A stretch of DNA of 64,000 bases from Malachius bipustulatus (taxonomy: Eukaryota; Arthropoda; Insecta; Coleoptera; Melyridae): positions 43,592,210 to 43,656,209 of the forward strand of contig OU342633.1 of NCBI GenBank assembly GCA_910589415.1, read 5' to 3'. The number at the start of each line of letters is the position of its first letter. The first letter of the stretch is position 1. Of this stretch, positions 42,271-46,594 are shown piece by piece. Made by a program: the position numbers and the translations under genes. Below the pieces are notes generated by a model, which was given only the letters and a program-made list of their open reading frames with translations, was not told where the DNA came from and ran no database searches.

Positions 42271-45200
42271 TCAGTCGATGTACTGGGCGAGCCAACGGAA
42301 ACCCTCACCGTAGCCTTGTCTCTTCAAGATGGAGCACATGAACAGTTCTAACGGGCGCCCGCGCAGATCAGACAGTGGTACTTTGCCCTGAAAACAATTA
42401 CTTTAAACTTGCGAGTCTCGTCGAGCTTATCGAAAAGTACCTTTCCGGTAGTTTGTTCGAACAGAGCGTAGTACATCCTCAGCTCGTCCTCGGAAGCCGC
42501 TCCGGGCAGATCGATCTTGTTCCCCAGGATGAGAACGGGACAGTTGGACAACGTCTCGTCCGTCAGGAGGGAATCCAGTTCTCGTTTGCTCTCTTCGAAT
42601 CTCGGCCGGTCGTTGGCGTCTATTAGGAACACTATCGCGTCCACCGCCGGGAAATAATCCTTCCACACTCTCCTCGCTAAGGGAAAAACAATGAAAAAAA
42701 ATTCAAACTTGTAATAAATGGGATTTTGGAAACTTACCTTGAGAGTGACCACCGAGATCGAACGTCGTGAACCTCATATTACCGATCGATAGCTCCTCTG
42801 AAGCTGTAAAATACAATTAATTAATAATTTATATTAACGAACAGAGTACAGTTAGTTAATTTCTCATGCATATCATCACTGGTTGACAGATGGGTTTATA
42901 ATAAAATAAATTTTATTAGTCAAAACCTTTTAATTCAAACATAAACTTTGCACAAAAAACTAGCACCTTGAAATAATTTATTAGATTGACATGGTGGCAT
43001 AAATATCGGCGCCTATTTTCCCTCCCTATCTTTTACGCTTTCAAATTTCTTGTAATTACAAAATCGGGTTTCAACTTCAACTGCTTCATTTTAGAACAAA
43101 ATCTTTTTTTATCAATTTTTTTTCAATATAAAATTTTACAAATGAAATCCGTACGTTGTAATCCATCTTAAATCTGGATCGTTGCTATTCCTAGGCCGAT
43201 ATTCCAAACCTATCCAGTCTTCATATCCGCTTGCTGCTAGGAAATTAAGAACATACTGATAATCTATTTCACCGGGAACATTTGGTTCATGCCTGTTAGG
43301 TACTTGAGCTATCTGTACGTGTCCTACGAACGGCAAGAGGCTTGTAATGGAATTAGTTATATCACCTCTGATTTGCTGCAAATGGAATATATCCAACATT
43401 ATCTTTAAACTGGTACTATCAATCTTCTTAACAAAGTCCAGAGCTTTTGTGTAGCAATTCATGTAGTAATTCGGAAGTGAATATTTATTGATTGGTTCAA
43501 TCAGTCCGATTATGTCGTCTTTTTCGAATAAACTTACAGCGTATCGAAGGTTTTTTTCGAATACTTCGTCGTGATCGTTTGTTATTCCTTCATTGACTAC
43601 ACCGGACATTATATGGATCTTCTTTACTTTCAAACATTTAGCATAATTTAGAGTTTTATTTATACTCTCTTTGAACTCGTTTTCTTTTCCTGGAAGTGCT
43701 GCAAATCCAAACTCTCCTTTAAGGGCGTTCCCTGAGTAAGTGTTAATGAGAATTTGCTGCACTTTAGCCGCAGTCCTTGCATTGACTACTTCATCCAGGG
43801 TGAGTGAGTCAGGCGGGAACCCGCTCTCTACCGCTTTGAATCCTGCTCTTGCGGCGTGTTCATATCTTTGTATGAAAGGCACTTCCGTGAACATAAAACT
43901 CAAGTTGGCACAAAACTTTGCCATTTCATCAATTAAATTAATTACACTGAGAAATTGTAATAGTCGCTTCTAGACTGACACTATTATCTAATTGTTGTGA
44001 TAAGATAATAATTATTGTTTGTTACTACTCATTATTATAAGTTGTATGTATACCATTGTATAGTCCAAGTACCTTAATAAGATACATACTTAATAATCGT
44101 TTTCATTGTTGTTGATTCAATAAAGAAATTCAATTAACGAATTAATATACTAGAAAATCGTTTTATTGTTAAATTTAACAGTCTTTATCAACAAATCATT
44201 AAAGGCCGCTTTGGGGTTATAAAAAGTTTTCTTGGTAATCCTGTACAATCTGTCGCTAAATTTTACCCTACCATACCTATAAATAAAAATAAATGCGTCG
44301 TAAGTCAGGTCTTTGGTCAGGGTAGGGTTTTTTTTCCTTAAAATGGCCTTGAAATGAAAAAAAAAAACTACCCTGACCAAAGACCTGACTTACCGAACCG
44401 GAATTTGGAGGATTTATTTTTATTTATATGGTAGAGTAAAATTTAGCGACAGATTGTACAGGATTACCGTTTTCTTTAATTTTTTACTACAATGTTTTTC
44501 TCAGGTAATGTTGTGCCATTTACAATGTTTCGTATTTGCACTAAAGTCAGTGTCTTAAAAATAAAGAGGGAAAAGGGGCGCCAACCCTGAATATCTACGC
44601 CACTGGAAGATATCTACAAAACCTGCAATAGCCAAATTAAAGATCTCTGCTTGTTTATTGTTGATGCCAAGTTTCATCAAAATCGGTTTAAATATACACC
44701 AGTTAGAATAACCAAAAACTGTTATTTTTTTACACCTTGACACCCTGTATCATTTAAACGTATATTTTATGAGCAGTCTCTTTAAATTTGACCCTATATC
44801 ATTGAAACACCCTGTATAATAATTATTTCTACATTACTTTTTTTGTATCAATTTAAAAACAAAAACATCTTTAAACCGGTAAAAAAATTCAAAAATTAAA
44901 TATCACGGTCTCTGGATGTTATGATTAAATTGCAAACTTGGCAACAACAAAGTTTCTAGTTCCTGTAAGGGTTCATGAAGCGGTATTGCCAACTGTTAAA
45001 CAATCCAAGCATCAGCAATGATAGGCAGTGAAATTTTTATAATCAACTACTCAGACAACATTTAACTTGAATTAATAAGTAACAGGTAGCTGAAACTATT
45101 AATGATTTTTAAACTAAACTATCAACAATAAACAATAATAATATAAAATCGTTAGTGGAAATTGATATCTTACTGGGATGAAGCGTAGGAAGATGCTGCG

Positions 45201-46594
45201 CTAGCCTGTCGTCCTTGAGCATGTGCAACAGGGTCGTCTTTCCGGCATTGTCCAGCCCCAGGAAGAGCAGCTTCCCAGACTTCTTCCACAGGCCTGCACA
45301 GACGTGCAAAAGTATTAGTCATAATAATCGCTCGAATCACTAACCTCTGTACTTGAAACCCTCTAGGGTGTCGGACGAGTACACGGTATGGCCGGGCGTC
45401 GGACTTATCATCCCCTCTTCGAGCAACAATTGCACCAGGGAAGCCTTGCCCGCACCTGGCAGACCGAGGAAGATGTATCTTCCTTTCGTTTTTAACAAAC
45501 CTGACAAAAGACATGTGAGCCATATGGTTCAGAATGTTGCTGATTTTTCAAAATATAATTACCAGAAGTTTTGGAATTTAGCTAATTAAATTAACCAACT
45601 ATAATATCTATCCGATTTATTGAATATATTTCACAATCTTGCTTCAATTCGAAATGATACATTTTGATTTTTGCCCAATTAAATAGCTCTTGTGAATGAT
45701 CTACATATTCATTAGCAACTAGAGAATATTTATTTCAAAGGTATCAATAACTTGCAGCGACTTGAAAATTTGCTAGAGGACAGGCAATTAAGAAACTGTA
45801 AGCGAATTTATCCTTCGAATTCGAGTTCTCGAGGTATGGCCGTTCAAAATTGGAAATTAGTCGTTTTTTAGCTTTTCAAAATGTTTTCCTCATTTTGTGA
45901 GAAAAGTGAGGACATTACAGAAATTCAGTTTTATAGTATCAATTGAATGAAATCGATTAGTCTAAAATAATATGATTGGTACAGCTGAGTGAATATTATC
46001 TTCCCTAAACGTTTTGGAGAGAAATGTTAAATGAATCATATCATTTGTTAAAACTGAAAAGCCATTTCTGTTGCTATAGTTAGATTTGAAGTTGTTCAAG
46101 TCATTGTGATAAAAATGGGAAGAATGTTTTCTGAATCTTTACTGAATAAAATTAATATTATTTATCAAACTGATGTGAATTATGTTTCATTAGATGAATT
46201 ACTGGATTTTTGAATTTTTAGCATTCTCAATTCGAGCTAATTTGTAAACATTCTCCCTGGGAGCTCCAGGTTGGCCTTTCTCCTCCTTACTATTATTAAT
46301 CCATTAAAATTTGTGACATCAGCCATTATAAATCAAGAAGGCATCAAGGTTCCATTCCATAGCCTACTGTTTTTATTTTGTCTGGAGTTATTTTTTCTCA
46401 TCATTATGGGATGATAAAATAATAATAATTGGTAGGTACTTATATTATAATAGGTAGCTAGTACAATATTAATTTTTAAGCTGGCATGTCTCTTATTATT
46501 AAAATGTAGGTACATAAAGATAGACAGAGCATAATTACATAAATTACTCACCCAAGTATCCTAAAACGCCAGTAAACCAATCCCAGATGAACAT
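42271..46594 (-). CDS. Sar1: Sar1 small GTPase (COPII coat initiator)
   Basis: Arf-family GTPase that inserts in the ER membrane and recruits Sec23/24 for COPII vesicles. Coding exons in transcript order: 46594-46552, 45293-45174, 42803-42738, 42676-42441 and 42387-42271 (TGA), total 582 nt, 193 residues, the length recalled for fly Sar1. Motifs: amphipathic start [16 protein letters not shown]1 [10 protein letters not shown]3 TTFDLGGH; G4 LGNKID; C-terminal [21 protein letters not shown]. All junctions keep frame. An acceptor two bases before the ATG implies a 5' non-coding exon; GTAAGT at 46911 on this strand is a candidate donor. AATAAA at 41901-41896 and 41823-41818 may end the transcript. 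The intron between the second and third listed exons contains the HYI-like gene. Confidence 0.95.
43136..43924 (-). CDS. Gip: Hydroxypyruvate isomerase-like protein
   Basis: 262 codons, single exon. TIM-barrel sugar isomerase of the xylose isomerase/AP endonuclease-2 superfamily, whose animal members are named putative hydroxypyruvate isomerase (HYI; Gip in fly). The reaction would be hydroxypyruvate to tartronate semialdehyde, by homology only. Signatures: [17 protein letters not shown] at the N-terminus, HIMSGVV, LIEPIN with a candidate metal/acid Glu143, [32 protein letters not shown] and GLEYRP near the end. Length fits the family (about 260-277). It lies wholly inside the Sar1 intron 42804-45173, on the same strand. 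TTTATT at 42977-42982 (AATAAA on the minus strand) is a possible poly(A) signal. It needs its own promoter; none is obvious. Confidence 0.92.
   Translation of the reverse strand: MAKFCANLSFMFTEVPFIQRYEHAARAGFKAVESGFPPDSLTLDEVVNARTAAKVQQILINTYSGNALKGEFGFAALPGKENEFKESINKTLNYAKCLKVKKIHIMSGVVNEGITNDHDEVFEKNLRYAVSLFEKDDIIGLIEPINKYSLPNYYMNCYTKALDFVKKIDSTSLKIMLDIFHLQQIRGDITNSITSLLPFVGHVQIAQVPNRHEPNVPGEIDYQYVLNFLAASGYEDWIGLEYRPRNSNDPDLRWITTYGFHL
44223..44477. mobile_element. ~255-bp fold-back MITE in the Sar1 intron
   Basis: Arms pair over their length: 'ggtaatcctgtacaatctgt' (44234) with 'acagattgtacaggattacc' (44448), and 'gtcaggtctttggtcagggt' with 'accctgaccaaagacctgac' near the centre. Non-coding, upstream of the nested HYI-like gene. 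Confidence 0.85.
44735..44820. repeat. Two CACCCTGTAT termini
   Basis: 'ttgacaccctgtatcattta' (about 44737) and 'gaaacaccctgtataataat' (about 44805) resemble right ends of the ACAGGGTG-type elements found elsewhere in the window. Their left partners were not found, so these are probably truncated copies. Confidence 0.45.
45345..45500 (-). CDS. Sar1: Extra, diverged P-loop exon of Sar1
   Basis: Between Sar1 coding exon one and the canonical P-loop exon is a 156-nt open segment with acceptor TTTTGTCAG and donor GTTAGT. It begins [20 protein letters not shown] and continues [19 protein letters not shown], then [13 protein letters not shown]. It aligns with the normal exon ([20 protein letters not shown]) at GL.K..G...FLGL..AGK. 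The residue after GK is Ala instead of the Mg2+-binding Thr39 of Sar1. Both exons are phase 1-1, so replacement (205 aa) or double inclusion (245 aa) stays in frame. Only 51 bp separate the two. Inferred: a duplicated cassette, perhaps mutually exclusive; transcript use unknown. Confidence 0.75.

Follow-up and report, generated by a model that had tools for sequence, protein, structure and literature searches.

The window analysed here, 64,000 nucleotides (nt) of the beetle Malachius bipustulatus (contig OU342633.1, positions 43,592,210 to 43,656,209), contains on its minus strand, from 46594 to 42271, a complete Sar1 gene in which the exon encoding the canonical phosphate-binding loop (P-loop), exon B, is preceded by a second and diverged version of the same exon, exon A. 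Sar1 is the small GTPase switch that initiates export from the endoplasmic reticulum (ER), and it is universal and nearly invariant. Exon A is almost certainly a real coding exon, judging from the homology described below, and it is very probably used as a replacement for exon B, a usage that is seen as annotated gene models in related species. As for the role of the resulting A isoform, we give about even weight to the reading that this ancient alternative exon yields a membrane-anchored Sar1 unable to hold magnesium-bound guanosine triphosphate (Mg-GTP) normally, which might act as a splicing-set brake on coat protein complex II (COPII).

The elements of the gene, with positions counted along the window, are the following.

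46552..46594, minus strand: Sar1 exon 1 (E1), with the start codon and the N-terminal membrane segment, 15 residues, ending in phase 1.
45345..45500, minus strand: exon A, alternative P-loop exon of 156 nt and 52 codons, with GLPGAGKAS and a variable tail; profile match of 61.4 bits, no second copy found in its own genome.
45457..45459, minus strand: Pro codon CCA of exon A at the place of Asp34 of canonical Sar1 (position counted by hand).
45442..45444, minus strand: Ala codon GCT of exon A at the place of Thr39 of canonical Sar1, turning GKT into GKA (position counted by hand).
45391..45393, minus strand: Gly codon GGC of exon A at the place of the switch-I residue Thr56, in ungapped register (position counted by hand).
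45294..45344, minus strand: A-B intron of 51 nt, with a branch-point-like CTAAT lying 21 nt upstream of the 3' splice site.
45174..45293, minus strand: exon B, canonical P-loop exon of 120 nt and 40 codons, with GLDNAGKTT.
42738..42803, minus strand: Sar1 exon 3 (E3), with switch II and DLGGH.
42441..42676, minus strand: Sar1 exon 4 (E4), with the NKID motif.
42271..42387, minus strand: Sar1 exon 5 (E5), up to the stop codon.

Exon A lies 51 bp upstream of exon B, both exons are phase 1-1, the splice sites of exon A are an acceptor ...tgtcag and a donor gttagt, and every Sar1 junction is GT-AG. Two homologous exons that lie side by side and share their phase, as A and B do, are the arrangement expected of a mutually exclusive pair. 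Re-reading the sequence returned the same coordinates, strand, splice sites, phases, lengths and P-loop motif of the two exons as a preliminary description of this DNA, which had also foreseen correctly that exon A can replace exon B in frame (E1+A+E3+E4+E5, 205 residues, against 193 for E1+B+E3+E4+E5), that inclusion of both exons stays in frame as well (E1+A+B+E3+E4+E5, 245 residues with two tandem P-loops) and that the switch-I side is longer in exon A (52 versus 40 codons). Exon A encodes 51 residues after the junction Gly, with GKA for GKT, Pro for Asp34 and Ser for Thr40, while the guanine-binding motifs are all encoded by exons common to the A and B isoforms. The A isoform of 205 residues matches solved Sar1 structures (E 6e-70, E being the expectation value) and the Arf family PF00025 (E 5e-46), and the canonical Sar1 of the window is 96% identical to that of Aethina. 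The 544 Mb genome of the beetle holds a single high-identity Sar1 locus (82-98% by exon, the other matches listed being at most 44% identical), and a genome-wide search found no further copy of exon A, its sole other match being exon B. Since Sar1 is single-copy, a splicing choice would act on the only Sar1 of the animal.

The open frame of exon A is in itself weak evidence, because 8.7% of 20,000 base-shuffled versions of it remain open; this figure speaks for a dead duplicate that is still open by chance. The profile searches give a different picture. A six-frame search of the whole window with a profile of canonical exon B retrieved exon B with 101.5 bits, exon A with 23.7 bits and a next match with 8.9 bits. 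The reciprocal search, with a profile of 21 exon As from other sources, retrieved exon A with 61.4 bits (E 4.6e-18, on the basis of 2046 six-frame segments of the window), exon B with 28.4 bits and a next match with 6.1 bits. In 20 block-shuffled windows the B profile scored no higher than 9.7 bits and the A profile no higher than 9.0 bits. Moreover, third-position G+C in exon A (0.67) is like that of exons 3-5 (0.68), exon B standing at 0.77.

The 21 further exon As were found, among the matches listed, by full-length and masked profile protein searches, as 15 A-only proteins, 5 A-plus-B models and 1 read-through frame. Thirteen come from Aethina, whose order was looked up, and from Leptinotarsa, Harmonia, Dendroctonus, Cryptolaemus, Onthophagus, Tribolium, Euwallacea, Sitophilus, Hypothenemus, Zophobas, Acanthoscelides and Molorchus, all of which we take to be beetles. 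The others belong to Orussus, Cephus and Trichomalopsis (presumably Hymenoptera), two Timema species (stick insects, on the same assumption), Anabrus (a katydid, we assume), Scylla (presumably a crab) and one assembled contig (P0153), the source of which we judge to be weevil-like. With this distribution, exon A is ancient and common to several insect orders, and the presence in relatives that the preliminary description had proposed to look for is what was found. No exon A stands under a fly, moth or bug name among the matches listed, which does not prove its absence from these groups. The other 133 of the 154 listed proteins comprise 131 with the canonical GLDNAGKTT and 2 plant proteins without that stretch.

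These counts depend on how the searches were built. The full-length search with the A isoform gave the best 120 of 2863 matches. The masked profile search (A1), in which X replaced the residues of the common C-terminal part and the ranking was thereby left to exon A, scored the 7996 candidates with most shared words and gave the best 120 of 229, adding 4 of the 21 exon As (P0121, P0123, P0128 and P0153); the profile members P0038 and P0119 are absent from that best 120. In leave-one-out runs under the mask used, the copy of Orussus, of Scylla or of Acanthoscelides, when omitted, is placed among the canonical proteins, and distant exon As have possibly been missed. A protein search with exon A only, by a method that requires three shared 5-residue words, gave no match. 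In the Acanthoscelides model (P0038), exon 1 is joined to the middle of exon A and the first residues are skipped, which reflects either a different acceptor or a model error.

Across the 22 exon As (the window copy and the 21 others), mean pairwise identity over 31 core columns is 0.50, against 0.079 in within-sequence shuffles. The copies were registered on the motif [SAC]G[KR], so that conservation of these three columns is partly by construction; without them identity is 0.465 against 0.078 (maximum 0.089 in 300 shuffles). In Acanthoscelides, the Gly that precedes the motif stems from exon 1; it was counted as exon A in the first test and removed in the anchor-free one. With a core conserved across insect orders and annotated isoforms that use it, the dead duplicate evoked above was rejected, as an extremely improbable explanation; the claim that exon A is a genuine alternative exon stands, on profile homology and on six annotated swap pairs. 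Exon B is by comparison nearly invariant, with 19 distinct versions among the 125 proteins matching a fixed exon-B pattern. In a tree of the 31 columns, a branch with support 100/99 separates the A exons from the B exons. The Scylla exon joins exon A in this tree, and its grouping with exon B is not rejected by the approximately unbiased test (p 0.43; 31 columns), for which reason we do not claim a single origin at the insect-crustacean level.

Both isoforms are present in six species (Aethina, Harmonia, Cryptolaemus, Euwallacea, Zophobas and Cephus), and the annotated pairs differ only by the A/B swap: the N-terminal 15 residues are the same, and so is everything from SEELS onward (138/138 residues in five species and 116/116 in Cephus). 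A-type Sar1 isoforms are already present in databases as predicted variants. Against the six swap pairs and the 15 A-only models stand five joined A-B models (Molorchus, two Timema species, Anabrus and Trichomalopsis), which, with phases that permit it, are what can be said for a 245-residue Sar1 carrying both exons as the normal product. We find this improbable in view of the A-only models and of the clean swaps with identical flanks; in addition, the structure model of the joined Molorchus protein is poor (mean predicted local distance difference test, pLDDT, of 52, with residues 17-137 under 50, from a shallow alignment). On the annotation, the six clean swaps favour replacement, and the five joined models leave double inclusion possible.

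Mutual exclusion of exons A and B had been ascribed in the preliminary description to the 51-nt intron between the two, whose length is near the minimum for splicing. Such steric exclusion was not accepted as shown, given that two introns of this gene downstream of the choice measure 53 and 61 nt and that joined models exist. Enforcement of the choice by intron length or by nonsense-mediated decay is not demonstrated, because of these 53- and 61-nt introns and because A, B or both keep the frame. The two exons are also not of similar length (156 versus 120 nt, with exon A tails of 3 to 18 residues), although similar length is used as a predictor of mutually exclusive exons according to the accessible part of PMC3228551. 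As a separate observation, in P0153 the open frame of exon A continues across the A-B intron and into exon B with no stop codon, which suggests an intron of about 45 nt there, an estimate made by hand from the protein letters; an intron of that size in another beetle would, if anything, favour the intron-exclusion idea.

The residues that differ between the two exons are those of the nucleotide site, numbered here as in human Sar1 by hand on a structure-match alignment. In the Sar1 fold, magnesium is coordinated by two residues of the protein, Thr39 and Thr56. Among the exon As, Asp34 is found in 0/22 and Thr56, in ungapped register, in 0/22, with Tyr in 13. Thr39 is kept in 3/22 and replaced in 19/22 by Ala, His, Cys, Tyr, Val or Phe, with Ala in 12/22. 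The preliminary description had put forward the loss of both Thr39 and Asp34; both are indeed lost in the window, but Ala39 is not constant, and on the aligned copies the constant losses in exon A are Asp34 and Thr56 (ungapped) rather than Thr39. The P-loop itself is largely kept: Lys38 is present in 18/22 and replaced by Arg in 4/22, Ser or Thr occupies position 40 in 22/22, and Gly32 is found in the 21/21 copies that cover it. Gly37 lies within the anchor motif, and Gly32 and Gly37 are also invariant in an unanchored alignment of 18. The tail after the core measures 3 to 18 residues across the 22 copies, which makes the switch-I side the least constrained part of the exon. All three hymenopteran exon As found (P0080, P0123 and P0128) have Arg-His at Lys38-Thr39, with loss of the P-loop lysine. 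As predicted from its residues, the A isoform comes from the Sar1 gene but lacks the nucleotide-site signature of Arf/Arl/Sar (GLPGAGKA in the window; signature GxxxxGK[ST] with Asp). In the accessible part of PMC3012027, the P-loop Asp is described as the anchor of a salt-bridge network special to Arf/Arl/Sar, and Sar1 T39N is called restricted to guanosine diphosphate (GDP) in that of PMC1262696.

These features lead us to propose the following scheme. Exon A would have arisen long ago by tandem duplication of the Sar1 P-loop exon and would be swapped for exon B so that a second Sar1 is made from the single gene. The A isoform would retain the membrane-binding N-terminus, the P-loop glycines, switch II and the guanine-binding motifs, and it would lack Asp34, usually Thr39 and, in ungapped register, Thr56, with a longer and variable switch I. 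Poor or Mg-free nucleotide binding would be expected of such a protein, which could not hold Mg-GTP and whose switch I would not close on Sec23/Sec24. On the ER membrane it might compete for Sec12 or for membrane sites and in this way act, in a T39N-like manner, as a splicing-set brake on COPII budding. The steps are of unequal strength: the Mg-GTP site of the A isoform is probably defective, to judge from the residues lost, whereas an inhibitory role is conceivable but somewhat short of an even chance. We would advance with similar reserve the wider idea that insects kept a splice-encoded pseudo-GTPase Sar1, without both magnesium threonines and the P-loop Asp and with the phosphate loop kept, as a throttle on COPII. 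Such a splice-encoded form of Sar1 may be some 350-400 million years old.

The joined gene models mentioned above are one of several observations that weigh against this proposal. The kept P-loop glycines and Ser/Thr40 suggest that phosphate binding is still under selection, and a working but altered GTPase fits such kept residues as well as a dead one does. Lys38 and Thr39 are kept together only in Onthophagus and Scylla, where a magnesium-competent pocket is possible. In the window copy and in Scylla, a Pro-Thr stands two residues before the expected switch-I Pro-Thr, so that a shifted Thr may be available. Arl8, in which Gln replaces the P-loop Asp, is described in the accessible part of PMC3012027 as probably mechanistically different, yet it is treated as a GTPase, so that loss of Asp34 alone need not abolish activity. 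The structure predicted for the A isoform of Aethina is of low confidence (mean pLDDT 62, with residues 1-13 and 52-91 under 50) and was built on an alignment of 29 rows, of which 14 are A isoforms and 15 canonical. In this model the strand, P-loop and helix are in place and the best fold match is Sar1-GDP (E 8e-16), which is expected from the shared sequence alone; as a prediction, it carries no information on nucleotide binding. Finally, none of the exon As among the 154 listed proteins derives from a short contig of transcript type, as many of the canonical sequences do, and the sole contig-source exon A, P0153, is a read-through of genomic type.

The points on the P-loop could be taken to mean that the A isoform remains active but with different kinetics (weak magnesium binding and fast nucleotide exchange, for instance) and handles special cargo, for example proteins of the cuticle or matrix, instead of blocking export. 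The near-constant Ser/Thr40, Lys38 and Gly32, the guanine-binding motifs contributed by shared exons, the two copies that keep both Lys38 and Thr39 and the Arl8 precedent are all compatible with it. We nevertheless regard it as unlikely, though not negligible, since Asp34 and Thr56 (ungapped) are missing from every copy, Thr39 is replaced in most, and the hymenopteran copies have Arg-His at 38-39. The lack of transcript-like contigs with exon A among the listed proteins, on the other hand, together with the position of exon A directly upstream of exon B across a short intron, would suit a splicing decoy that tunes canonical Sar1 output at the RNA level and whose protein is irrelevant. Conservation of protein residues in one frame and inclusion that preserves this frame make such a decoy quite improbable. 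A Sar1 with a defective Mg-GTP site remains our preferred reading of the exon.

Two other elements lie in the 2370-nt intron between exon B and exon 3. The first, at 43136-43924 and nested on the same (minus) strand, is an intronless open reading frame of 262 residues with a xylose-isomerase-like TIM barrel (PF01261, E 1e-35), which presumably resembles hydroxypyruvate isomerase. The second, at 44234-44468, consists of two nested inverted repeats with arms of 57 nt (89% complementary) and 36 nt (94%), and is perhaps a small palindromic mobile element.

With respect to earlier work, no alternative Sar1 exon appears in the titles and abstract beginnings of the papers listed, a scope that leaves aside subscription papers and supplements; the words 'splic' and 'isoform' are absent from the main text of a survey of the ARF family (PMC8358228), and 'sar1' is absent from PMC3303723, PMC3228551 and PMC9741552. 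If the proposal is true, insects set ER export by a splicing choice between a working and an altered Sar1, and the 22 copies of exon A represent natural variation on what a G domain needs when magnesium coordination is given up.

As far as the accessible literature describes them, the mutually exclusive exons of insect muscle myosin heavy chain, N-cadherin and Dscam are, like exons A and B of Sar1, adjacent homologous exons of the same phase that are swapped in frame; in contrast to these pairs, what is exchanged in the Sar1 swap is a small GTPase's P-loop, with loss of magnesium and switch residues, and the exons differ in length (156 and 120 nt). Compared with canonical Sar1, the A isoform shares all other exons, the N-terminal segment, DLGGH, NKID and PF00025, and differs by the loss of Asp34, Thr39 and Thr56 (ungapped), by Ser in place of Thr40 and by a longer switch-I side. 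PseudoGTPases, such as those of p190RhoGAP, are a class with a GTPase fold and degraded nucleotide-site motifs, as the A isoform would have, whereas the latter arises by alternative splicing from the active gene itself. SarB, an ancient Sar1-like paralogue of protists known to us from the accessible part of PMC8358228, is likewise a second Sar1-type protein beside Sar1, but it is encoded by a separate gene and the A isoform by an exon of the single Sar1 gene. The laboratory mutant Sar1 T39N, as far as the accessible part of PMC1262696 describes it, has lost the same P-loop threonine as the A isoform; exon A, by contrast, is natural, carries several further changes and has mostly Ala rather than Asn. 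If the splice-encoded A isoform does inhibit export, it would be the natural counterpart of this tool mutant.

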